Positions 95 through 12,262 of a stretch of 64,000 nucleotides of DNA are shown here, in pieces. The notes beneath the pieces are model-generated. The model was not told the origin of the DNA and made no database searches. It worked only from the letters and a program-made list of their open reading frames with translations. The DNA lies in assembly GCA_013349285.1 (NCBI GenBank), contig DUZU01000009.1:1-64000 (forward strand), written 5' to 3'. Positions within the stretch are counted from its first letter, which is position 1. Each line of letters opens with the position of its first letter. The stretch comes from Deltaproteobacteria bacterium (GTDB taxonomy: Bacteria > Desulfobacterota > Desulfobulbia > Desulfobulbales > Desulfurivibrionaceae). The position numbers and the translations under genes are program-made.

Positions 95-1441
95 CTACTC
101 CATGCTATATTTCTTCAACTTCCGCCACAATGACACCCGATCTATACCCAGAATCTCGGCGGCCTTGGTCCGATTGCCCTCGGTTTTTTCCAGAACCCAT
201 TCAATATAGGTCCGCTCCTGTTCCTCCAGGGAAGGCATGGTGCTTTTCCGTGCCCGGAATGTCTGAATCCCCATTTCCGGCAGATGCTCGGGCTCGATGC
301 TCTCGCCGGGCGCCAGAACCACGGCCCGCTCGATAATATTCTCGAGTTCACGGATATTGCCGGGATAATCATAGCCCATCAGCAAAGTCATGGCATCGGG
401 CGACGCCTGGCGAATATTTTTGTTCATCGCCCGGCTGAATTTGTTGATGAAAAACTGAACCAGTAACGGAATATCGCGCCGCCGTTCCGCCAGGGGCGGC
501 AGGTGGATATTCATCACATTGACCCGAAAATAAAGATCCTGCCGAAAACGGCCGTCGCGCACCATTTTCAGGATATCACGATTGGTGGAGGCGATGAACC
601 GCACGTCAATCTTCACCGGTTTGGTTGACCCCACCGGTTGCACCTCCTTCTCCTGCAGGACCCGAAGAAGCTTCACCTGCATGGCCGTCGACATCTCGGT
701 AATCTCATCAAGCAGCAGGGTGCCGCCCTGGGCCGCCTCGATCAGCCCCTTCTTGCTGCTGTCGGCCCCGGTGAAGGCACCTTTCTCGTGTCCAAACAAT
801 TCATTGGCCAGCAAATCTTCGGTAAAGACCCCGCAGTTCACCCCGAGAAACGGTCCTTTGGCCCGGGGACTGTTCTCATGCAAAAACCGACTCATTAACT
901 CCTTACCGGTACCAGATTCACCGGTGATCAACACACTGACATCTCCCTGGGCGATCTGCCTGGCGGTGCGGAGAAGGTCTTTCATCTTCGGATCTTCGCT
1001 GAGAATGGTCGCGCCGTGGGCCTTGGCCAAGGTGTTCTTCAACTGCCGGTTTTCCAACTTGAGATGCCGTTTTTCCAGGGCCTCGCGGACCACCCGCCTG
1101 ACCTCTTCAAGCTTATAGGGCTTGGCGACATAATGATAGGCGCCGGACTTCATGGCCTCCAAGGCCGAATTAACCGTGGCATAACCGGTAATCATCACCA
1201 CCTCGGTATCGGGGAAGAGACTTTTGGACAACTCCAGAATCTCCATGCCATCCACCCCGGGCATGCGCAGATCGGTCAGGACCAGATCCAACTCATCCGC
1301 CACCATCCCTTTCAGGATCTTCACCGCCTGGGCGCCGCTCTCGGCCATCTCTACCTCGTGTCCATCCTTGACCAGGATGTGACGCAGGTTGCGCAGGGCT
1401 ATCTTTTCATCATCAACAATCAGAATTTTAGCTTTTTCCAT
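95..1441 (-). CDS. NtrC-family sigma-54-dependent response regulator
   Basis: A 448-residue transcription activator. The receiver domain (about residues 4-118) has acidic residues D10/D11, phosphoacceptor D57, T85 and K107. The AAA+ domain (about 145-375) has Walker A GESGTGKE at 174-181, the sigma-54 contact loop GAFTGA at 221-226 and Walker B LLLDE at 242-246. A Fis-type helix-turn-helix lies in the last 45 residues. All catalytic features are intact, so it should activate sigma-54 promoters when phosphorylated. The start overlaps the end of the upstream histidine kinase by 14 bp, which implies translational coupling and a cognate pair. A consensus sigma-54 promoter lies just beyond the head of this operon at 5233-5249, so the genes divergent from the operon are plausible targets (inference). 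Confidence 0.95.
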   Translation of the reverse strand: MEKAKILIVDDEKIALRNLRHILVKDGHEVEMAESGAQAVKILKGMVADELDLVLTDLRMPGVDGMEILELSKSLFPDTEVVMITGYATVNSALEAMKSGAYHYVAKPYKLEEVRRVVREALEKRHLKLENRQLKNTLAKAHGATILSEDPKMKDLLRTARQIAQGDVSVLITGESGTGKELMSRFLHENSPRAKGPFLGVNCGVFTEDLLANELFGHEKGAFTGADSSKKGLIEAAQGGTLLLDEITEMSTAMQVKLLRVLQEKEVQPVGSTKPVKIDVRFIASTNRDILKMVRDGRFRQDLYFRVNVMNIHLPPLAERRRDIPLLVQFFINKFSRAMNKNIRQASPDAMTLLMGYDYPGNIRELENIIERAVVLAPGESIEPEHLPEMGIQTFRARKSTMPSLEEQERTYIEWVLEKTEGNRTKAAEILGIDRVSLWRKLKKYSME

Positions 1442-2903
1442 TGGACTGCTCCAAAAAACCAGATTTTTCCACGGGCAGCATTATGGTAAAGACGGTACCG
1501 CCTTCATCCGGACAACTGACCTTAATCTCGCCGCCGTGCTTGGTGATAATCTCGCGGGTTACCGCCAAACCAAGCCCTGATCCCTCACCAACATCCTTGG
1601 TGGTGAAAAAAGGATCGAAAATTTTATTAACTATCTCATCAGGAATCCCGGGCCCATTGTCCCTGACCTCGATCTTGACCTTGCCGGTATCGTCATCAAA
1701 GCCGCCGCAAAGTTCTATCCGGCCGAAATCGCCCAAGGCATGAAAAGCGTTTAACAGCAGATTAACCAGCCCCTGCTGCAAGCGCTGCTTGTCCGCCCAG
1801 AAAAAAACATCCTCGCTGATCAGCAATCTGGTTTCCACGTTAGTGGGGATCTCCCCCCGCACCAAATCCATGGTTTGATGCAACACATCGCTTACCAGCA
1901 GCTGCTCGGGGCGCACCTCACGCTCCCGTGAAAATTCCAGCAGCGAGCGGACAATGGTCCGGGCCCGGTCGGTCTGCTCGGTGATCTGCTCAAGCATTTC
2001 CAATTGAAACTTCCTGGGAACATCCTCGTTTTCCCGCATCTCCTCCAGGAGAATCTCCGCCGAAGTCCCGGCATTGGAAAGGGGATTATTCAGTTCATGG
2101 GCAACCCCGGCCACCAGGGTCCCGACCGCGGCCAACTTTTCTTTCTGAATGATCAACTCCTCGCGATTTTCGATCTTATGCAGCATATATTGGATGGCCT
2201 GCATCACCGCTTTGATCTCGGCCAGGTTGACAACCTCGGCAAAGTCGGTGCAGGGCGCGGTCTCGCCCGAGGCGATTTTGCCGGTGCAGTGAACAATCTG
2301 CCGCAAGGGGCGCACCACCGAGGTGGCGAGATTACGAGCAAAAAACATGGCGGTTAAGGTAAAAATCAGCAGCAACAAAACACCGCTGGCATGGACCGAG
2401 CTCAAGGTGGAATTAATCGAACTACGGGTCGAATCATTGAGATCGTCGGCCAGATCCACCAGATACTTGCCCTTCTCCCTTATGGTCTCGAGCATCTTGT
2501 GGGATTTCCCGGCGTGCAGCAGTTCTGCCTCCCGCTCCATCAAATCCTCATATTCACCGAGGATCATCTTGATATTCTTTAACTTTTTATAGGTTTCCTT
2601 GCCCAGATTATCCGAACCGTCCAATTCCTCAATCAAGGCAAAAGCATTGGCCACCATGGTGTGATTGATCGCCAGGTCATCCTCCAGTCCATATAAAATC
2701 CAGTTTTTCTCATAGCGCCTGATCTCCAGCACTGTATCGAGAAGCTTGGTAACCTTCTCCAGCACAATGACCCGGGACTGCACCCGGGATAACGTCCCGC
2801 CTGAGAAAAAAAGGCCGGCCATTACCATGGCGATCATAATGTAAAAACCCCACTGTATTCTCTGGGCGATGCTATTTGTCCAAGGCCAGTTCATAACCAC
2901 CAC
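1428..2903 (-). CDS. Membrane sensor histidine kinase
   Basis: A 491-residue kinase, probable partner of the NtrC-type regulator that follows with a 14-bp overlap. Two membrane segments (about 16-38 and 172-192) flank a roughly 130-residue, mostly helical extracytoplasmic domain of the four-helix-bundle type. A HAMP-like linker follows, then the HisKA H-box with H269 (motif AHELNNPLS), and a HATPase domain with N-box LLLNAFHAL, DNGPGIP and GSGLGLAVT. The periplasmic sensor is not assignable to a named ligand class by eye. The gene lies 37 bp after the receiver-Lon fusion, so one transcript probably carries a protease, a kinase and an activator. The start gives MVVMNW; the internal Met at residue 4 is an alternative. 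Confidence 0.93.
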   Translation of the reverse strand: MVVMNWPWTNSIAQRIQWGFYIMIAMVMAGLFFSGGTLSRVQSRVIVLEKVTKLLDTVLEIRRYEKNWILYGLEDDLAINHTMVANAFALIEELDGSDNLGKETYKKLKNIKMILGEYEDLMEREAELLHAGKSHKMLETIREKGKYLVDLADDLNDSTRSSINSTLSSVHASGVLLLLIFTLTAMFFARNLATSVVRPLRQIVHCTGKIASGETAPCTDFAEVVNLAEIKAVMQAIQYMLHKIENREELIIQKEKLAAVGTLVAGVAHELNNPLSNAGTSAEILLEEMRENEDVPRKFQLEMLEQITEQTDRARTIVRSLLEFSREREVRPEQLLVSDVLHQTMDLVRGEIPTNVETRLLISEDVFFWADKQRLQQGLVNLLLNAFHALGDFGRIELCGGFDDDTGKVKIEVRDNGPGIPDEIVNKIFDPFFTTKDVGEGSGLGLAVTREIITKHGGEIKVSCPDEGGTVFTIMLPVEKSGFLEQSNGKS

Positions 2904-2940: not shown

Positions 2941-4959
2941 TCAGCGCAGCACATGCTCAACAATCTCCTCGACCGTGGCCGCGCAGAATATCTGCAAATC
3001 CCTTTTGATTTCCGGCGGAAGTTCGAGAAGATCAGGCTCGTTCAGGCTCGGGAAAATCACCTTCTTAATTCCGGCCCGCCGCGCGGCCATCACCTTTTCC
3101 CTGACCCCGCCCACCGGCAACAGCCTACCGCTTAACGTCAACTCGCCGCTTAAGGCCACGTCCTTCCTGGCCGCCCGGTTGGTCAACAGGGAAAGCAGGG
3201 CCAAGGCGATGGCCAATCCGGCCGAAGGCCCATCCTTGGGAATGGCGCCGGCCGGCAGATGGATATGGATGTCATGACCCAAGAAAAAATCATCCGCCAC
3301 CTGAAAACGGGCCGCATTGCTGCGGATATAGCTCAACGCCGCTTGGGCCGATTCCTTCATCACCTCTCCGAGGGAACCGGTAAGCAAGAGATTCTCCTTG
3401 CCCTTCATGATGGTGGCTTCCAGAAACATAATCTGTCCGCCGGACTCGGTCCAGGCCAGGCCGGTAACCACCCCGACCTGCTCCCGCACTGCGGCCAGAT
3501 CGAAATAAAACTTTCGCGGCCCCAGCAGCTCATCCACCTTCTCCGGGGTGATCACCATATAATCACCGCCGACACCGTTTTGATCGGCAAGAACCTTGCG
3601 GGCGATTTTCCGGCAGATGGCGGCAATCTGCCGCTGCAGATTACGCAACCCCGCCTCCCGGGTATGGTCACGGATTATCTTCTCGATCGCCTCCTTGGTG
3701 AATTCCAAGGGATGACCGGCAAGCCCGGCCTCATCGACTTCCCGAGGGACCAGATGCTTGACCGCGATCACCTCCTTCTCCTCCTCGGTATAGCCGGGCA
3801 GAGAGAGGATTTCCAGCCGGTCAAGCAGCGGGGCCGGAATATTGGCCGTGCTATTGGCGGTGGCAATAAATATCACCCAGGAAAGATCAAAGGGCACATC
3901 CAGGTAATGATCAAGAAAATGGTGATTCTGACTATGATCCAGCACCTCGAGCAGGGCGGCGGCGGTATTGCCCCGGCCCTCGTGGTCAAGCTTGTCTATC
4001 TCGTCAAGCATTATTACCGGATTTTTGGAACCGGCCCGGTTTATCTCCTGAATGATTCGACCAGGCAAGGCGCCGACATAGCTGCGCCGATGGCCGCGGA
4101 TCTCGGCCTCATCCTTGACCCCGGCCAAGGAAATCCTGATAAATTTGCGGCCCAGGCTCTTGGCAATGGAGCGCTGCAGCGAGGTCTTGCCGGTGCCGGG
4201 AGGGCCGACAAAACAAAGCAGGGGCCCCCTGGAACCGAGGTTGGCCGTTTTTTTCAAAAGAAGATCTTTAATTGTTTTCCTGAGCAGATCGAGCTGCAAC
4301 GGCTTGGCCAAAAAATGAAACGCCCCTCGGGTGATGGCTTCCACCGCTGCCGGAGGAGTGGCATAGCCGGTTACCATGATCACCCCGATATCGGGAGAGA
4401 CGGCCACCGCCTTCTCCACCACCTGCAGGCCGTCGACCTTGTCCATCTTAAGATCGGTCACCAGCACGTCAAAGGTTTTCGCGGAAAGCAACGCCAAGGC
4501 CTCGGCGCCGCCGGCGGCGAGTTGAACCTCGTAGCCTTCCTTGCCAAGCACATGCGCCAAATTGCGCCGTGCCGTCTTATCATCATCAACCACCAGGATC
4601 GCCGGCTTCCGGCTCAACTTGAGGATCTTCACCGCCAGGTGTTCGAGGATCCGCTCCTTGACATCATCCAGCCCGTGATGCTCATCGTCAAGAATCGTTG
4701 CCGCCCGCCGCATATCGAGATTGTCCACGGTCTCGCTATGCCAGGGCAGCCCTTTAAGATAGCCGAGATAATTAACGCCGATGGTGTACTCGGCCGAAGA
4801 AGTGTCGGCCTTGCTCAACCTGGTTAATTCATCAAGGGCAACCTTCTCCACCTCCTGCGGCATTGCCGCCTCCAGGATGGCTTTTTGCAAATCATCCAAT
4901 TCCGACCGAGGCTTCATACTTTCGCGTTCATCATCCCCAGGTCCGCTAAAAAATCCCAT
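2941..4959 (-). CDS. Lon protease with an inserted response-regulator receiver domain
   Basis: A 672-residue ATP-dependent Lon-type protease. Residues 65-110 resemble the stretch just before the Lon ATPase (GYLKGLPW, ILDDEHHGLDDVKERI). The normal continuation is interrupted by a complete receiver domain at about 118-235, with DDD at 125-127, phosphoacceptor D169, T197 and K219. The Lon sequence then resumes at GPLLCFVGPPGTGKTS (Walker A 252-260), Walker B VIMLDE 315-320 and LLDR at 378-381. The C-terminal Lon protease domain has the Ser-Lys dyad S579 (KDGPSAG) and K622 (GGVREKV). The N-terminal LAN substrate-binding domain of ordinary Lon is missing. Proteolysis is therefore likely gated by phosphorylation of D169 (inference). 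It heads an operon with a kinase and a sigma-54 activator. A GAGG ribosome site lies 10 nt before the chosen ATG; Met15 is an alternative start. Confidence 0.93.
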   Translation of the reverse strand: MGFFSGPGDDERESMKPRSELDDLQKAILEAAMPQEVEKVALDELTRLSKADTSSAEYTIGVNYLGYLKGLPWHSETVDNLDMRRAATILDDEHHGLDDVKERILEHLAVKILKLSRKPAILVVDDDKTARRNLAHVLGKEGYEVQLAAGGAEALALLSAKTFDVLVTDLKMDKVDGLQVVEKAVAVSPDIGVIMVTGYATPPAAVEAITRGAFHFLAKPLQLDLLRKTIKDLLLKKTANLGSRGPLLCFVGPPGTGKTSLQRSIAKSLGRKFIRISLAGVKDEAEIRGHRRSYVGALPGRIIQEINRAGSKNPVIMLDEIDKLDHEGRGNTAAALLEVLDHSQNHHFLDHYLDVPFDLSWVIFIATANSTANIPAPLLDRLEILSLPGYTEEEKEVIAVKHLVPREVDEAGLAGHPLEFTKEAIEKIIRDHTREAGLRNLQRQIAAICRKIARKVLADQNGVGGDYMVITPEKVDELLGPRKFYFDLAAVREQVGVVTGLAWTESGGQIMFLEATIMKGKENLLLTGSLGEVMKESAQAALSYIRSNAARFQVADDFFLGHDIHIHLPAGAIPKDGPSAGLAIALALLSLLTNRAARKDVALSGELTLSGRLLPVGGVREKVMAARRAGIKKVIFPSLNEPDLLELPPEIKRDLQIFCAATVEEIVEHVLR

Positions 4960-5232: not shown

Positions 5233-5249
5233 TGGCACGCCTATTGCTT
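5233..5249 (+). promoter_or_regulatory. Sigma-54 (-24/-12) promoter
   Basis: TGGCACG-N4-TTGCTT matches the RpoN consensus TGGCACG-N4-TTGCW at every fixed position. The -24 GG (5234-5235) and the -12 GC (5246-5247) are exactly 10 nt apart. Transcription would start near 5258-5260, giving a leader of about 110 nt before the gene at 5368. A sigma-54 activator gene is encoded in the divergent operon. Confidence 0.85.
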
Positions 5250-5367: not shown

Positions 5368-5637
5368 ATGAATACTCGAATCAATGCTTGGGATCGGATG
5401 ATGGGTGCTGTTACTTTTGCCGAGGCTGGTGAAGCTGGAACCGCCAAGGCCATACTGGCACAAAAAAGCGTGCGCCAACAACCCACCTTGAATCTGTGGG
5501 ACCGGATGATGGCAGCGGTAACCTTTGCCGAGGCTGGTGAAACTGAAACCGCCTTGCAGATTATGAACCGCAAAAGCCTTCAGGACCAGGCCCATGTTCG
5601 CAAACAAGCCGACAACCGTCCGCGGCTGCAGGCTTAA
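5368..5637 (+). CDS. Small protein with two FAEAGE repeats
   Basis: An 89-residue soluble protein that I do not recognise as a named family. It is essentially two copies of a 23-residue unit, residues 8-30 and 44-66, both reading WDRMM-x-AVTFAEAGE followed by a Thr/Ala-rich helix end, offset by 36 residues. The C-terminal 20 residues are basic and polar. The units look like amphipathic helices and suit a docking or oligomerisation peptide better than an enzyme. The ribosome site GGAGAG lies 8 nt before the ATG. It is the first gene after the sigma-54 promoter at 5233. The two genes that follow carry one copy each of the same motif within UspA-like proteins, so the three probably act together (inference). 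Confidence 0.85.
   Translation: MNTRINAWDRMMGAVTFAEAGEAGTAKAILAQKSVRQQPTLNLWDRMMAAVTFAEAGETETALQIMNRKSLQDQAHVRKQADNRPRLQA
5389..5457 (+). repeat. FAEAGE repeat, copy 1
   Basis: Codes for residues 8-30 of the small repeat protein. It is clearly similar at DNA level to the copy 108 bp downstream, sharing the core TTTGCCGAGGCTGGTGAA, which suggests an internal tandem duplication. Confidence 0.8.
5497..5565 (+). repeat. FAEAGE repeat, copy 2
   Basis: Second copy, residues 44-66 (WDRMMAAVTFAEAGE core). Related single copies are coded at 5845-5913 and 6320-6385 in the next two genes, so the motif occurs four times in 1 kb. Confidence 0.8.
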
Positions 5638-5664
5638 GCCACTGACCCATCACAGGAAGAGAAG

Positions 5665-6165
5665 ATGCAAAAAGTTTTACTGGTCATTAACGGGCTTACC
5701 CCCAATCAAAAGGCTCTTGATTATGCGTTGCAGTTATGCGAGCGGATCAAGGCTGAGTTGAAAATTTTGCTGGTGGTCAAGCCCGAGGTTGACGCTAACT
5801 GGCTGAGTTCTTTGAAAAAAAAGGCTCGCCTGGCCAAAAACATCTGGGAGGAAGCCATGATGGCCGCCGCCTTTGCCGAGGCTGACGTCCACGAAGCCGC
5901 CGACGAATTAATGGACCAGGCCCTGGCAAACATAAAAAAACTGCTTTCCGCTTCAAAAGCGGCGGGCATCCCTTGCCAGCTGATCGTTGAAAAAGGGGAG
6001 GCGGAGAAAAAAACAGCCGAGTTTGTCGAAGAAAACAGCCGGGTTGTCGTCACGGTCTACGATGCACCCGAGGCCGGCCAAGGGAAAAGGGGACCAGGCC
6101 AGAGTTTACAGAAGATATTACCGATCCCGGTAGTAATGCTTCAGACCGCAGGCCAAGAAACCTGA
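5665..6165 (+). CDS. UspA-like protein with embedded FAEAGE-type motif
   Basis: A 166-residue protein with a universal-stress-protein-like alpha/beta fold: the N-terminal strand KVLLVINGL, an amphipathic helix (ALDYALQLCERIKAE), strand LKILLVV, and a C-terminal strand PIPVVML. The loop usually holding the long connector carries residues 61-83, WEEAMMAAAFAEADVHEAA, which is the same peptide as in the small upstream protein. The ATP-binding G-x2-G-x9-G signature of nucleotide-binding Usp proteins is not evident (GQGKRGPGQS is only a weak match), so it may not bind ATP. It begins 27 bp after the repeat protein, with ribosome site AGGAAGAG, and is probably cotranscribed. Function unknown; a stress-signalling or transporter-regulatory role is inferred from its neighbours. 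Confidence 0.85.
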   Translation: MQKVLLVINGLTPNQKALDYALQLCERIKAELKILLVVKPEVDANWLSSLKKKARLAKNIWEEAMMAAAFAEADVHEAADELMDQALANIKKLLSASKAAGIPCQLIVEKGEAEKKTAEFVEENSRVVVTVYDAPEAGQGKRGPGQSLQKILPIPVVMLQTAGQET

Positions 6166-6241
6166 ATATAAAATTGCGTATCAAATTCTTTATATTTTTA
6201 ATTGTGCCTTCAATAAAGGGCACCTTGCAGGAGAGTGCAAC

Positions 6242-6802
6242 ATGGCATTTTTAGACTTTTTCAAAGGCAAAAAAAACAAACAGGAAGTAAAGGTCACCGA
6301 ACACAAACACTCAACCGTTCAGAATGCCGCAGTAGCGGCGGCCTTTGCCGAGGCCGGCGAGCATGAAACCGCCCGCAGCATGATAACCACCCCGGCCGGC
6401 AAACGGTCGCTTCTGGTTATCGGCCGGGAGGACAGCTTTTCCAGCATTTTGACCGATTATGCCGTGAACATGGCCAAAAGAATGAATGCCGAAATGATCT
6501 CCCTTAATTTTTCCGAGGAGCCGTTGGCCCAGGCCGATTCCGAACAGACGGCCGCCGTTGAGAATTTCCGCATAAACAGCGAGGCCAATGTTGCCACCTT
6601 AAAAACCAAAGCGGAACAGGCCGGCATCGCCTTTTCCCATCTGGTGGAAATCGGCGACGAAAAGAGCGTTTTGAAAAAAATGCATGCAAAGTTTCCCCAA
6701 GTACGCTATGTGCTAACCGAGCCTGACGTCGAGGCGGTTCAAGAAGCCAAAGGCTTGGTAACCGTGCCCGTATGCGACATGGCCACTTTCGTGTCAGCAT
6801 AA
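6242..6802 (+). CDS. UspA-like protein with N-terminal FAEAGE motif
   Basis: A 186-residue protein. A short basic leader (MAFLDFFKGKKNK) is followed at residues 28-48 by NAAVAAAFAEAGEHETARSM, the fourth copy of the cluster's shared peptide. A UspA-like domain from about 55 to the end has strand RSLLVIG, a helix with DYAVNMAKRMNAE, strand MISLNF, and a terminal strand VTVPVCD. No clear nucleotide-binding glycine motif is visible. The ribosome site AGGAGAG lies 7 nt before the ATG. A small stem (GTGCC/GGCAC, about 6206-6225) precedes it. The motif is N-terminal here and internal in the preceding gene, so it behaves as a mobile module. An SLC13-type permease follows, suggesting regulation of ion or anion transport (inference). 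Confidence 0.85.
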   Translation: MAFLDFFKGKKNKQEVKVTEHKHSTVQNAAVAAAFAEAGEHETARSMITTPAGKRSLLVIGREDSFSSILTDYAVNMAKRMNAEMISLNFSEEPLAQADSEQTAAVENFRINSEANVATLKTKAEQAGIAFSHLVEIGDEKSVLKKMHAKFPQVRYVLTEPDVEAVQEAKGLVTVPVCDMATFVSA

Positions 6803-6977: not shown

Positions 6978-8783
6978 ATGACCCCAGAAATAATGATCGT
7001 AATGGCCGTTTTAGTCGTAGCCATTCTCCTGTTTATATTTGAATGGGTTAGGGTGGACGTGGTAGGCATCATCATGATGGTTGCACTACCCCTGCTCGGA
7101 CTCGTAACCCCCAAGGAAGCAATAAGCGGCCTGTCCAGTAACGCCGTGGTTTCCATTATCGCGGTAATAATTATCGGCGCCGGCCTTGATAAAACAGGGG
7201 CCATGAACTCGCTGGCCCGGCTGATTTTAAAATTTGCCGGCAAAAGTGAAAGCCGGATCGTGACCCTGATCGCCTCCACCGTGGCCTTCATCTCGAGCTT
7301 TATGCAGAACATCGGCGCCGCAGCCCTGTTCATGCCGGCAGCCAAACGTATCGGCCGGCAGACCGGCATCCCGGTTTCCAAGATTCTGATACCCATGGGA
7401 TACTGCGCCATCATCGGCGGCTGTATCACCCTGATCGGCTCCAGCCCCCTGATCCTCTTGAACGACGTGATGAAGATCACCAACCCCAATGTCGAGCCCT
7501 TCGGGCTGTTCTCGGTAACCCCGGTGGGCTTGGCTCTAACCATCGCGGCCCTGCTTTACTTCATCTTTTTTGGCAAGTTTGTCCTGCCTTCGGCCCAGGG
7601 CGAGGAAACCTCCGGCCCGATGTCGGCCATCCTCCAGAACACTTACCGGGACATGGGAACCGTGTTTGAACTTCACATTCCCGAAAACTACAACGGTCCG
7701 ACCCTGATGGAAGAATTAAACATCAGGCCCCATTACTTCACCACGGTGGTGGCCCTGGCCCAAAATCAGCTGAAGAAAAAGCTGTTCGCCCCAAAACGCG
7801 ACAACCATATTGCCGCCGGCGATGATATTGCCGTGGTCGGCACCCGTGAATTCGTGGAAAACCTGGCCCGAGATTTCGGCTGGACCCTGCGCAATGAACT
7901 CTCCACCTTTGCCGAGGATCTTTCGCCCAACAACGCCGGCATCCTCGAGGCGATCATTACCCCCCGGTCGGAACTGGCGAGCAAGGCGATGCGCGCTTTT
8001 GAATTCCGGAAAAAATACCAGGTCAACCCCCTGGCAATTTTCCGCGGCGACAAGGTCTTCGTGGCCGGAATCTCCGACATTATCATGCAGCCCGGCGACG
8101 CCCTGCTGCTCCAAGGCCGCTGGGAAAAATTCCATAACCTGAAAAACAAACCGGATCTGGTCTTCACCGAAGAGGTCCAAGGTGAGATCATCCGGGAAGA
8201 CAAGGTGAAAATCGCCGTCGGCTGCCTGATATTTTCCCTGATCATGATCCTCGGTTTCAACGTCCAGCTTTCCATCGCCCTGTTGGCCGGCGCCCTGGGC
8301 ATGGTGCTGACCAAGGTAATGACCATCGACGAGGCCTACAACTCGGTAGACTGGATGACCGTTTTCCTGTTGGGGGGCCTGATTCCCCTGGGTATCGCCT
8401 TTGAAAAAACCGGGGCGGCCAACTTCATCGCCAACACGATCATGACTACCATCGGCACGGTATCACCCCTGGTGCTTTTAACGGTTATCGGCCTGTTGAC
8501 CTCCTTCTTCACCCTGGTGGCCTCCAACGTCGGCGCCACCGTTCTCATGGTGCCCCTGGCCATGAACATGGCCGGAGCAGCCGGCGCCGACCCACGGATG
8601 GCGGCCTTGGTTGTGGCAGTGGCCTGTTCCAACACCTTTGTCCTGCCCACCCATCAGGTCAACGCCCTGATCATGCGGCCGGGCGGTTACAAGACCATCG
8701 ACTACTTCAGAGCGGGCAGCGGCATGACCGTGCTTTTTATGGTGGTAATGATGAGCATGCTTTACTTCTTCTACGGCATTTAA
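6978..8783 (+). CDS. SLC13/DASS-type permease with two TrkA-C domains
   Basis: A 601-residue membrane transporter of the SLC13/ArsB/NhaD (ion transporter) superfamily. N-terminal membrane helices occupy about residues 1-200, with conserved SFMQNIGAAALFMPAA and GSSPLILLND. A cytoplasmic segment of about 170 residues looks like two tandem TrkA-C (RCK_C) ligand-binding domains, and a second membrane half begins near 410 (LLGGLIPLGIAFEKTGAANF, ASNVGATVLMVPLA). Such proteins move sulfate or dicarboxylates with sodium, and in sulfate reducers they are candidate sulfate importers; the substrate cannot be read from sequence. A GGAGG ribosome site precedes the ATG. It follows the two Usp-like genes and precedes nhaD, all rightward, so sodium-coupled transport is a common theme. 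The TrkA-C domains suggest nucleotide control. Confidence 0.9.
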   Translation: MTPEIMIVMAVLVVAILLFIFEWVRVDVVGIIMMVALPLLGLVTPKEAISGLSSNAVVSIIAVIIIGAGLDKTGAMNSLARLILKFAGKSESRIVTLIASTVAFISSFMQNIGAAALFMPAAKRIGRQTGIPVSKILIPMGYCAIIGGCITLIGSSPLILLNDVMKITNPNVEPFGLFSVTPVGLALTIAALLYFIFFGKFVLPSAQGEETSGPMSAILQNTYRDMGTVFELHIPENYNGPTLMEELNIRPHYFTTVVALAQNQLKKKLFAPKRDNHIAAGDDIAVVGTREFVENLARDFGWTLRNELSTFAEDLSPNNAGILEAIITPRSELASKAMRAFEFRKKYQVNPLAIFRGDKVFVAGISDIIMQPGDALLLQGRWEKFHNLKNKPDLVFTEEVQGEIIREDKVKIAVGCLIFSLIMILGFNVQLSIALLAGALGMVLTKVMTIDEAYNSVDWMTVFLLGGLIPLGIAFEKTGAANFIANTIMTTIGTVSPLVLLTVIGLLTSFFTLVASNVGATVLMVPLAMNMAGAAGADPRMAALVVAVACSNTFVLPTHQVNALIMRPGGYKTIDYFRAGSGMTVLFMVVMMSMLYFFYGI

Positions 8784-8869: not shown

Positions 8870-10297
8870 ATGAATAACCTGATATCGATAAGCTTCGCAC
8901 TTTGTTCCGTGCTATTTTTAGCCGGCCCGGCCTGGGCAAGCGGCCACGGGGGAGGTTCAACCCTCACCGACCTGACCCATACCGCCATGGGCTACGCGGC
9001 AGTGGCATTTTTTGTCTGCGCCTATGCGCTGGTCATCTTCGAAGAGCAGCTCCACCTGCGCAAATCCAAGCCGGTGATGTTCGCGGCCGGGGTGATCTGG
9101 GTGCTGGTCGCCGTAGCCTTTCATCAGCTGGGTAAGCCCGAGGCAGCCCATGATGCGATCATGCACAATATTTTAGAATACGCCGAGCTGATGCTGTTTC
9201 TGCTGGCGGCGATGACCTACATCAACTCCATGGAAGAACGCAATGTCTTCCAGGCCTTAAGGGCTTGGCTGGTCAACCGTGGTTTCTCCCTGCGCTTGGT
9301 TTTCTGGATTACCGGCTTGCTGGCCTTTGTCATCTCGCCGATTGCCGACAACCTGACCACCGCCCTGTTGATGGGCGCCGTGGTAATGGCGGTGGGCGGC
9401 GACAACACGAAATTCGTCGCCCTGGCCTGCATCAACATCGTGGTCGGCGCCAATGCCGGCGGCGCCTTTTCCCCCTTTGGCGACATCACCACCCTGATGG
9501 TCTGGCAAAAGGGGATAGTCCAGTTTGGCGAATTTTTCTACCTCTTCATCCCCTCCCTGGTCAACTGGCTGATTCCCGCCTTTATCATGAACCTGGCCGT
9601 GGGCAAACTTTACCCGGCTCCGATGAAAGAAGAAGTATTCATGAAACTGGGGGCCAGGCGGATAATCTTCCTCTTCCTCATGACCATCACCACCGCGGTT
9701 TGTTTTCACAATTACCTGCATCTGCCGCCCGCGGCCGGCATGATGTTCGGCCTTTCCTATCTCGGCTTCTTTTCCTATTACATCAAGAAAAAGGAACAGA
9801 GACAGCTTGAGTACGACAACCCCCTTGGGATCAGGCCCAACGGCGACAAACCCGCCACCTTCGACCTGTTCCGCAAGATCGCCCGGGCCGAGTGGGACAC
9901 CCTGCTCTTTTTCTATGGGGTAATCCTTTGCGTGGGCGGCCTTTCCCAGTTCGGTTACCTGGCCATGGTTTCCAACCAGATGTACCACGGGCTCGGCGCC
10001 ACCTATGCCAACGCCCTGGTCGGCGTTCTTTCCGCGATTGTCGATAACATCCCGGTCATGTTTGCCGTTCTCACCATGAATCCGGACATGTCCATGGGGC
10101 AGTGGCTGCTGGTAACCCTCACCGCCGGAGTTGGCGGCAGTATGCTCTCCATCGGCTCGGCCGCCGGCGTCGGCCTGATGGGTACGGCCCGCGGCGTTTA
10201 CACCTTCGGCGCCCACCTTAAATGGATGCCGGTCATCGCCTTGGGTTACGCAGCCAGTATCGTCTGCCACCTCTATGTGAACAGCAATCTATTTTAA
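8870..10297 (+). CDS. nhaD: Na+/H+ antiporter NhaD, copy 1
   Basis: A 475-residue inner-membrane sodium/proton antiporter of the NhaD family, which exports Na+ (and Li+) in exchange for protons. It has an N-terminal hydrophobic leader ending WASGHG, then about a dozen membrane helices. Family signatures are present: HNILEYAELMLFLL, SPIADNLTTALLM, NAGGAFSPFGDITTLM, and near the C-terminus DNIPVMFAVLTMNP and GGSMLSIGSAAGVGLMG. Length matches the family. The ribosome site AAGGGA lies 8 nt before the ATG. A strong terminator follows at 10317. A close paralogue starts 538 bp downstream, a tandem duplication pointing to a sodium-rich or alkaline habitat or sodium-based energetics (inference). Confidence 0.95.
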   Translation: MNNLISISFALCSVLFLAGPAWASGHGGGSTLTDLTHTAMGYAAVAFFVCAYALVIFEEQLHLRKSKPVMFAAGVIWVLVAVAFHQLGKPEAAHDAIMHNILEYAELMLFLLAAMTYINSMEERNVFQALRAWLVNRGFSLRLVFWITGLLAFVISPIADNLTTALLMGAVVMAVGGDNTKFVALACINIVVGANAGGAFSPFGDITTLMVWQKGIVQFGEFFYLFIPSLVNWLIPAFIMNLAVGKLYPAPMKEEVFMKLGARRIIFLFLMTITTAVCFHNYLHLPPAAGMMFGLSYLGFFSYYIKKKEQRQLEYDNPLGIRPNGDKPATFDLFRKIARAEWDTLLFFYGVILCVGGLSQFGYLAMVSNQMYHGLGATYANALVGVLSAIVDNIPVMFAVLTMNPDMSMGQWLLVTLTAGVGGSMLSIGSAAGVGLMGTARGVYTFGAHLKWMPVIALGYAASIVCHLYVNSNLF

Positions 10298-10834: not shown

Positions 10835-12262
10835 GTGACAGGCAAACTGTTTGCTATAATTCTGACCACAATCGGCGTCGCCATCCCCGGCATGGCGCTG
10901 GCCTCGGCGGCCCCGGGCGAAACCATCAACCTGACCGCAGCCGGCGTCGGCTATACCTGCCTGGCAATTTTCGTGCTGGCCTACCTGCTGGTGATGGGCG
11001 AAGAGTTCACCCATATGCGCAAATCCAAGCCGGTGTTGCTCGCGGCCGGATTGATCTGGGGAATCATCGCCTATGTCTACGCCAGCCACGGCCTTACCCA
11101 TGCGGCGGAGATCGCGGTGCGCCATAATATCCTGGAATATGCCGAACTCTTTCTCTTCTTGCTGGTGGCGATGACTTATATCAACGCCATGGAAGAAAGA
11201 CAGATCTTTGAAGCGCTGCGCTCCAAGCTGGTAAGCGCGGGCTTCTCCTTCCGCAAAATATTCTGGATTACCGGCCTGCTGGCCTTTTTCATCTCGCCGA
11301 TTGCCGACAACCTGACCACCGCCCTCTTGATGTGTGCCGTGGTCATGGCCATCGGCAAGGGCAACGCCAAATTCATCGGCCTGGCCTGCATTAACATCGT
11401 GGTGGCGGCCAATGCCGGCGGCGCTTTTTCTCCCTTCGGCGACATCACCACCCTGATGGTCTGGCAGAAAGGAATCATCCAATTCTGGGACTTTTTCTCC
11501 CTTTTCGTGCCTTCGGTGGTCAACTGGCTGGTGCCGGCCTTTATCATGAGCCTGGCAGTTCCCAATCTGCAGCCGGACGCCAACGAAAGGGAAGTGAGCA
11601 TGAAGCGGGGCGCCGTGGTGGTTATGGGGCTTTTTCTGGCGACCATCTGCACGGCGGTCAGCTTTCATAACTTTCTGCACCTGCCGCCGATGATGGGGAT
11701 GATGACCGGGCTGGCCTACCTCAAACTGTATGGCTACTACCTGAAAAAAACCCATAAAAAGGTGGGCGAGGAGCCCAGAAGGCGGCGCGGGGATGAAGGC
11801 CAGGAAATCGGCGACACCGTTCCCTTTGATATCTTCAACAGCATCGCCCGGGCCGAGTGGGATACCCTGATGTTCTTCTACGGGGTCATACTCTGCGTGG
11901 GCGGCCTCGGCTTCATCGGCTATCTGGCCATGGTTTCCAACACCATGTATACCGGCTGGGGCGCCACCCCGGCCAACGTGATGGTGGGAATCCTTTCAGC
12001 CATTGTCGATAACATCCCGGTAATGTTCGCGGTCCTCACCATGAATCCGGAGATGTCCCAGGGCCAGTGGCTGCTGGTCACCCTCACCGCCGGGGTCGGC
12101 GGCAGCATGCTCTCCATCGGCTCGGCGGCCGGGGTCGCCCTCATGGGCCAGGCGAGAGGCAACTACACCTTTTTCGGCCATCTCAAATGGACCCCGGTCA
12201 TCGCCTTGGGTTACGCGGCCAGCATTTACGTCCACTTTCTGATAAATGCCGCCAAATTTTAA
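10835..12262 (+). CDS. nhaD: Na+/H+ antiporter NhaD, copy 2
   Basis: A 475-residue NhaD antiporter, paralogue of the gene at 8870 and of identical length. Most membrane segments align without gaps (shared HNILEYAEL, SPIADNLTTALLM, NAGGAFSPFGDITTLMVWQKG, DNIPVMFAVLTMNP). It diverges mainly in the N-terminal leader and in the cytoplasmic loop around residues 305-330, which here is longer and basic (EEPRRRRGDEGQ). It starts with GTG behind a full AAGGAGG ribosome site 7 nt upstream. It is monocistronic: a candidate promoter at 10725 and a strong terminator at 12281 bracket it. Separate control of the two copies suggests different expression conditions (inference). Confidence 0.95.
   Translation: MTGKLFAIILTTIGVAIPGMALASAAPGETINLTAAGVGYTCLAIFVLAYLLVMGEEFTHMRKSKPVLLAAGLIWGIIAYVYASHGLTHAAEIAVRHNILEYAELFLFLLVAMTYINAMEERQIFEALRSKLVSAGFSFRKIFWITGLLAFFISPIADNLTTALLMCAVVMAIGKGNAKFIGLACINIVVAANAGGAFSPFGDITTLMVWQKGIIQFWDFFSLFVPSVVNWLVPAFIMSLAVPNLQPDANEREVSMKRGAVVVMGLFLATICTAVSFHNFLHLPPMMGMMTGLAYLKLYGYYLKKTHKKVGEEPRRRRGDEGQEIGDTVPFDIFNSIARAEWDTLMFFYGVILCVGGLGFIGYLAMVSNTMYTGWGATPANVMVGILSAIVDNIPVMFAVLTMNPEMSQGQWLLVTLTAGVGGSMLSIGSAAGVALMGQARGNYTFFGHLKWTPVIALGYAASIYVHFLINAAKF

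Follow-up and report, generated by a model that had tools for sequence, protein, structure and literature searches.

Three consecutive genes near the start of the window, which is the whole 64,000-nucleotide stretch of DNA that was analysed, hold four copies of a 29-residue module of the form x-M-x-A-x-T-F-A-E-A-G-E-x-E-T-A-R-x-x-L (the FAEAGE module). The genes encode a small protein and two UspA-type proteins, UspA1 and UspA2, and are flanked by a receiver-bearing Lon protease (REC-Lon), with its kinase and regulator, and by transporter genes, as follows.

95 to 1441, minus strand: sigma-54 (NtrC-type) response regulator, DVU3305-like, with GAFTGA read from the sequence; its homologues adjoin motif loci
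1428 to 2894, minus strand: histidine kinase, DVU3304-like, adjoining the regulator and REC-Lon
2941 to 4959, minus strand: REC-Lon protease, divergent from the small-protein gene, with Response_reg at 121-230, AAA at 248-384 and Lon_C at 470-671
5233 to 5248, plus strand: sigma-54 -24/-12 promoter, TGGCACGCCTATTGCT, 135 bp upstream of the first motif gene
5368 to 5637, plus strand: small protein, 89 aa, with two FAEAGE hairpins, a basic linker and a C-terminal tail
5377 to 5463, plus strand: FAEAGE module copy 1, in the small protein; profile match
5485 to 5568, plus strand: FAEAGE module copy 2, in the small protein, starting 36 residues after copy 1
5617 to 5634, plus strand: C-terminal tail R-P-R-L-Q-A of the small protein, resembling the SspB ClpX-binding tail RPALRVVK
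5665 to 6165, plus strand: UspA1, Usp fold with a FAEAGE hairpin between beta2 and alpha2
5833 to 5919, plus strand: FAEAGE module copy 3, inside UspA1; profile match
6242 to 6802, plus strand: UspA2, N-terminal basic segment, then a FAEAGE hairpin, then the Usp fold
6308 to 6388, plus strand: FAEAGE module copy 4, near the UspA2 N-terminus; profile match
6978 to 8783, plus strand: DASS/CitMHS-type anion transporter with a TrkA_C domain, by description the probable counterpart of DVU3299
8870 to 10297, plus strand: NhaD-type Na+/H+ antiporter, with a second copy at 10835-12262

The original prediction had placed two copies in the small protein, one in UspA1 and one in UspA2, and all four are in place; that observation was right, and understated. 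The sigma-54 promoter that it had put ahead of these genes is a real -24/-12 site, and the sodium and anion transporters that it had put downstream are the DASS/CitMHS-type anion transporter and the NhaD antiporters, whereas the key neighbour missing from it was the divergent REC-Lon protease at 2941-4959. Both NhaD-type genes are co-oriented and lie downstream of the regulon. Against Pfam PF00582, UspA1 scored 28.0 bits, above the cut-off of 24, and UspA2 17.9 bits only, below it.

A comparable system is known from D. vulgaris, where DVU3303 (REC and Lon), DVU3304 (kinase) and DVU3305 (sigma-54 regulator) are described as a proposed three-component stress system in which DVU3305 targets the operon that it belongs to as well as DVU3302-3298, with UspA-domain and membrane proteins among the products (PMC3333781, PMC4641369). 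Binding of the regulator to a target promoter is shown for D. vulgaris only (PMC3333781). A further study gives DVU3303-DVU3305 a pairwise cofitness above 0.9 and a detrimental effect in chlorate, and presents DVU3299, a target of the DVU3305 system, as a putative anion transporter (PMC10102598). In 2011 the D. vulgaris receiver-bearing Lon was reported as unusual and as one that may need phosphorylation for activity. Like the DVU3303-DVU3305 system, the window has a REC-containing Lon, an adjacent histidine kinase and a sigma-54 regulator, together with a sigma-54-promoter operon encoding UspA proteins and an anion transporter, and on the likeness of gene composition the locus is probably the counterpart of the DVU3298-3305 system. 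Neither a shared peptide module nor a common C-terminal tail, however, is mentioned in the accessible text of the papers on that system.

To describe the module, a 29-column profile was built from 305 distinct copies, all from fetched loci outside the window. This window-free profile recovered the ORFs of the small protein, UspA1 and UspA2 with E-values of 2e-27, 9e-11 and 5e-9, and the three scored 30-54 bits against 9.1 bits for the best of 12,000 shuffled ORFs. None but these three exceeded 4 bits among 600 ORFs of the window, and no further copies beyond the four were found in the window's own genome. The conserved positions are T/A-F-A-E-A-G-E/D, then x-E-T-A-R-x-[IL]-[LM], with A15 invariant in all 305 copies; the collecting pattern fixed F/Y-A-E/Q, and conservation at these positions is by construction. 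The UspA1 and UspA2 copies are identical at 17 and 21 of 29 positions to those of the same Usp in other families and at no more than 11 to other copies of the window, and the module is therefore old. The two small-protein copies share 19 and 18 identities with copies of other genomes and 18 with each other. Recent duplication within the window was rejected, since the copies resemble their counterparts in other families equally or more.

With the 89-aa small protein as query, matches were obtained in 42 of 97 relatives, and the small homologues do carry the motif. Nor are hits limited to this contig: in a sample of 395 genomes spread over the phylum Desulfobacterota, 44 had a match to the motif profile, and among about 85,000 species a pattern scan picked out 146 relatives. 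Of these, the best 80 come nearly all from Desulfobacterota and Nitrospirota, the strays being bins of Chromatiales, Magnetococcales and Marinifilum. A generic alanine-rich helix is not supported, as shuffles reached at most 9.1 bits and the best 80 of the 146 relatives fall mainly into two phyla.

The carriers comprise small proteins with one, two or three copies; UspA1, with the module between beta2 and alpha2, and UspA2, with the module ahead of the fold; a third Usp type, in which the module is N-terminal; a Nitrospirota Usp that has it mid-protein; CheY-like receivers in which it is C-terminal, and degenerate receivers whose variant reads FAQAGE; and a small membrane protein in which it is N-terminal. 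A PF00582 match at E up to 0.1 was present in 25 of 71 scanned motif proteins, UspA1 among them; unlike the UspA family as such, these proteins have the FAEAGE hairpin as an addition, which sits either between beta2 and alpha2 or ahead of beta1. The module is thus ancient and portable, and the idea of a portable element is borne out by at least seven protein contexts, 305 distinct copies and at least two motif ORFs in 67 of the best 80 loci of the 146. That these proteins share a partner, as had also been proposed, is supported indirectly by one regulon, one neighbourhood and a near-invariant FAEAG(E) core on unrelated folds. No curated family for the module was found in Pfam or NCBIfam, no solved structural relative by PDB sequence search, no match for plasmid carriage and no mention of FAEAGE in the literature searched.

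A second type of FAEAGE operon, without REC-Lon, was seen in loci L034, L035, L037, L050, L051 and L147. It encodes a multi-repeat small protein ending LGLxxIxxxYG, and a degenerate receiver and a CheY-like receiver with one module copy each, and sits beside kinases and another NtrC-type regulator.

AlphaFold predicted two helix-turn-helix hairpins in the small protein, with the turn at A-G-E and pLDDT of about 76-82 in the best blocks, the models being of low confidence overall (mean pLDDT 66, the value for the small protein, and 65). In the UspA1 model the module lies between beta2 and alpha2, in a low-confidence region, and its second helix runs into alpha2. The top Foldseek matches were mostly TPR or PPR proteins, none of them significant (best E 0.73); weak Pfam matches were given by TPR_4 in 3 and TPR_6 in 4 of 71 motif proteins (E up to 0.1; best 0.0014), and the motif had no TPR hit among PDB sequences. 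Where a protein has several copies they are spaced by 34 residues (L034, L035, L037, L051) or, in the window, by 36; most carriers hold just one. In these models the FAEAGE module looks like a TPR-like alpha-hairpin. Its predicted helix-turn-helix, its small-aromatic-Gly-Ala pattern and the 34-36 residue period of the multi-copy carriers resemble those of TPR and PPR repeats, which dominate the top structural matches, but it occurs as single hairpins embedded in other folds, with a short second helix, near-invariant AE positions and no significant Pfam or PDB match.

The REC-Lon of the window lacks the canonical Lon N-terminal substrate domain and carries a CheY-type receiver as an insertion immediately ahead of its AAA+ domain. 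Walker A, the receiver Asp/Thr/Lys and the GPSAG...K protease residues can all be read in it, and it has no ClpX-type zinc domain. In the 395-genome Desulfobacterota sample REC-Lon was found in 51 genomes, the motif in 44 and both in 29 (odds ratio 29, Fisher p 1.8e-19, not corrected for phylogeny), with both present in 16 families and the two lying within 2.5 kb of each other in 21 of the 29. Of 118 first motif genes, 40 are preceded by a strict sigma-54 site; among 841 control genes of the same loci the number is 9.

So strong a co-occurrence and adjacency, and the placing of the module at the termini or in a loop of otherwise differing proteins, would fit a degron that is recognised by REC-Lon, or in genomes without it by ordinary Lon or ClpXP, and that would make the products of the regulon short-lived after stress. 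Yet no REC-Lon was detected in a third of the motif genomes (15 of 44), and FAEAGE is therefore not simply a REC-Lon degron; as a strict one it is further weakened by the 22 of 51 REC-Lon genomes without the motif. Many motif-free REC-Lon loci, moreover, keep a homologous Usp with a different segment in that place, and the predicted ordered hairpin would be an unusual degron, which together make even the broader form of this explanation decidedly improbable. Thus, where the original prediction had offered a docking element or degron, the portability stood and the simple REC-Lon degron did not, and it is a separate C-terminal tail that tracks REC-Lon.

Among the best 80 of the 146 scan loci REC-Lon was present in 41, an NtrC homologue in 53 and either one in 71, and where REC-Lon is absent the motif genes usually still adjoin a kinase/regulator pair (L177-L184). 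The presence of this pair, the TPR-like period of the hairpins and the weak TPR Pfam matches are consistent with an assembly or dimerisation hairpin that acts apart from proteolysis, gathering Usp, CheY-like and small proteins in one complex, or onto the kinase or NtrC regulator. However, such a role leaves the REC-Lon adjacency and the REC-Lon-linked tail unexplained, and hetero-assembly cannot be general because several genomes have a single detected motif protein; it is a possible function, though a somewhat unlikely one.

Other families of the order (L053, L054, L058, L063-L068) keep REC-Lon, transporters, kinase and regulator, and in their UspA2 a conserved GEMAAGNxxAAAxAMARM occupies the FAEAGE position. 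A small gene adjoins REC-Lon in FAEAGE-less loci (L053:8513-8851, L064:6713-7033, L065:7246-7581 and others), and its product resembles a HigA-type helix-turn-helix protein (LPDPIDYLKxVMxxRGLRNKDLKxYIGSSGNVSSVLxRRKPLSLRMIRN...).

The small motif proteins beside REC-Lon end R-P-x-[LMI]-R-[VAMIL], and this REC-Lon-associated C-terminal tail is new here. In 47 distinct REC-Lon-adjacent tails, R stands at -6 in 40, P at -5 in 33, L, M or I at -3 in 40 and R at -2 in 32; RPRLQA, the tail of the window's small protein, is a weaker match to the RPxLRV form. Within 2 kb of REC-Lon, 34 of 54 small motif proteins had the strict tail, and far away 2 of 21 did, an association that, like that of REC-Lon with the motif, ignores phylogeny. 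Both of the distant exceptions (L038, L043) belong to genome G029, whose REC-Lon lies on a different contig, and some of the 20 nearby small proteins without the strict tail are other proteins or extended variants, mainly from Nitrospirota. Counted over all ORFs of the fetched loci only, 57 of 87 REC-Lon loci had a tail-bearing ORF within 3 kb, versus 6 of 150 control anchors; some five of these 57 look like chance ORFs. Module-free REC-Lon loci have similar tails on unrelated proteins. In other families of this order a small DWYCFF protein beside REC-Lon has the ending ...RPRLQA, and FAEAGE-free REC-Lon loci encode a membrane segment, coupled to UspA2, that ends RPRPxLRLNA, while in genus g3, mostly without REC-Lon, a related membrane protein has FAEAGE and no tail. 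In L153-L171, which have REC-Lon without FAEAGE, UspA2 and the small membrane protein are read as one frame, either fused or overlapping.

The adaptor SspB ends RGGRPALRVVK, as confirmed residue by residue in PDB 8et3, and its tail docks to the ClpX zinc-binding domain. Over six residues the tail of the small protein resembles this ClpX-docking motif, and may be equivalent to it. SspB (PDB 8et3, 2DS8) and the product described here are both small proteins with a flexible linker and a C-terminal R-P-x-L-R-V-type tail, but the latter has predicted helical hairpins instead of the SspB fold, with no ssrA pocket and no Pfam match, its neighbour is a receiver-bearing Lon rather than ClpX, and its tail is without the final VK. 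Both the small protein and unrelated REC-Lon neighbours, including membrane proteins, have the tail as their very last residues, as they might if it sent only its own bearer to the protease; the small protein would then be a substrate serving as sensor or titrating anti-adaptor, and FAEAGE would bind something else. We consider this very doubtful, as docking is the main role of the similar SspB tail, even if an XB fusion did give moderate degradation of eGFP.

In the reading that we prefer, the small protein next to REC-Lon would act as a bipartite adaptor, the FAEAGE hairpin binding one or more partners and the tail docking to REC-Lon or ClpX; we give this reading a probability of roughly 0.4. 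The FAEAGE hairpin would mark the products of a DVU3303-3305-type sigma-54 stress regulon, made up of a histidine kinase, an NtrC-type activator and, in numerous lineages, a Lon under receiver control. The hairpin or hairpins of the adaptor would bind FAEAGE-bearing proteins or their common receptor, and the R-P-x-L-R-hydrophobic tail would tether it to the protease, REC-Lon or less likely ClpX, in a way resembling the tethering of cargo to ClpX by SspB; phosphorylation of the inserted receiver may gate REC-Lon. A separate adaptor would make sense because REC-Lon is without the usual Lon N-terminal substrate-binding domain. In favour of the adaptor are a module that is real and specific and occurs in many unrelated contexts, its co-occurrence with REC-Lon, the sigma-54 sites and the REC-Lon-linked tail; against it are the motif genomes without REC-Lon and the REC-Lon genomes without the motif, a tail of six residues, a REC-Lon without the zinc domain of ClpX and structure models of low confidence.

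A tag common to differing stress proteins of one regulon in sulfate reducers and related bacteria, together with an SspB-like tail on the small tagged protein beside REC-Lon, suggests a new protease-adaptor system. In its most far-reaching form, which we hold to be rather unlikely, a phosphorylation-gated Lon without a substrate domain would use tiny adaptors that combine an SspB-like tail with a FAEAGE hairpin code; if this were true, then, through the hairpin that unrelated proteins share, one two-component signal would settle simultaneously what becomes of an entire stress regulon. The accessible text of the later D. vulgaris papers is silent on substrate selection by REC-Lon, and the small protein, hairpin and tail offer a concrete hypothesis, which is testable in a tractable organism where kinase, regulator and Lon already share a phenotype. 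An adaptor role would, moreover, supply a function for very small proteins that form a widespread family without a name in the databases.
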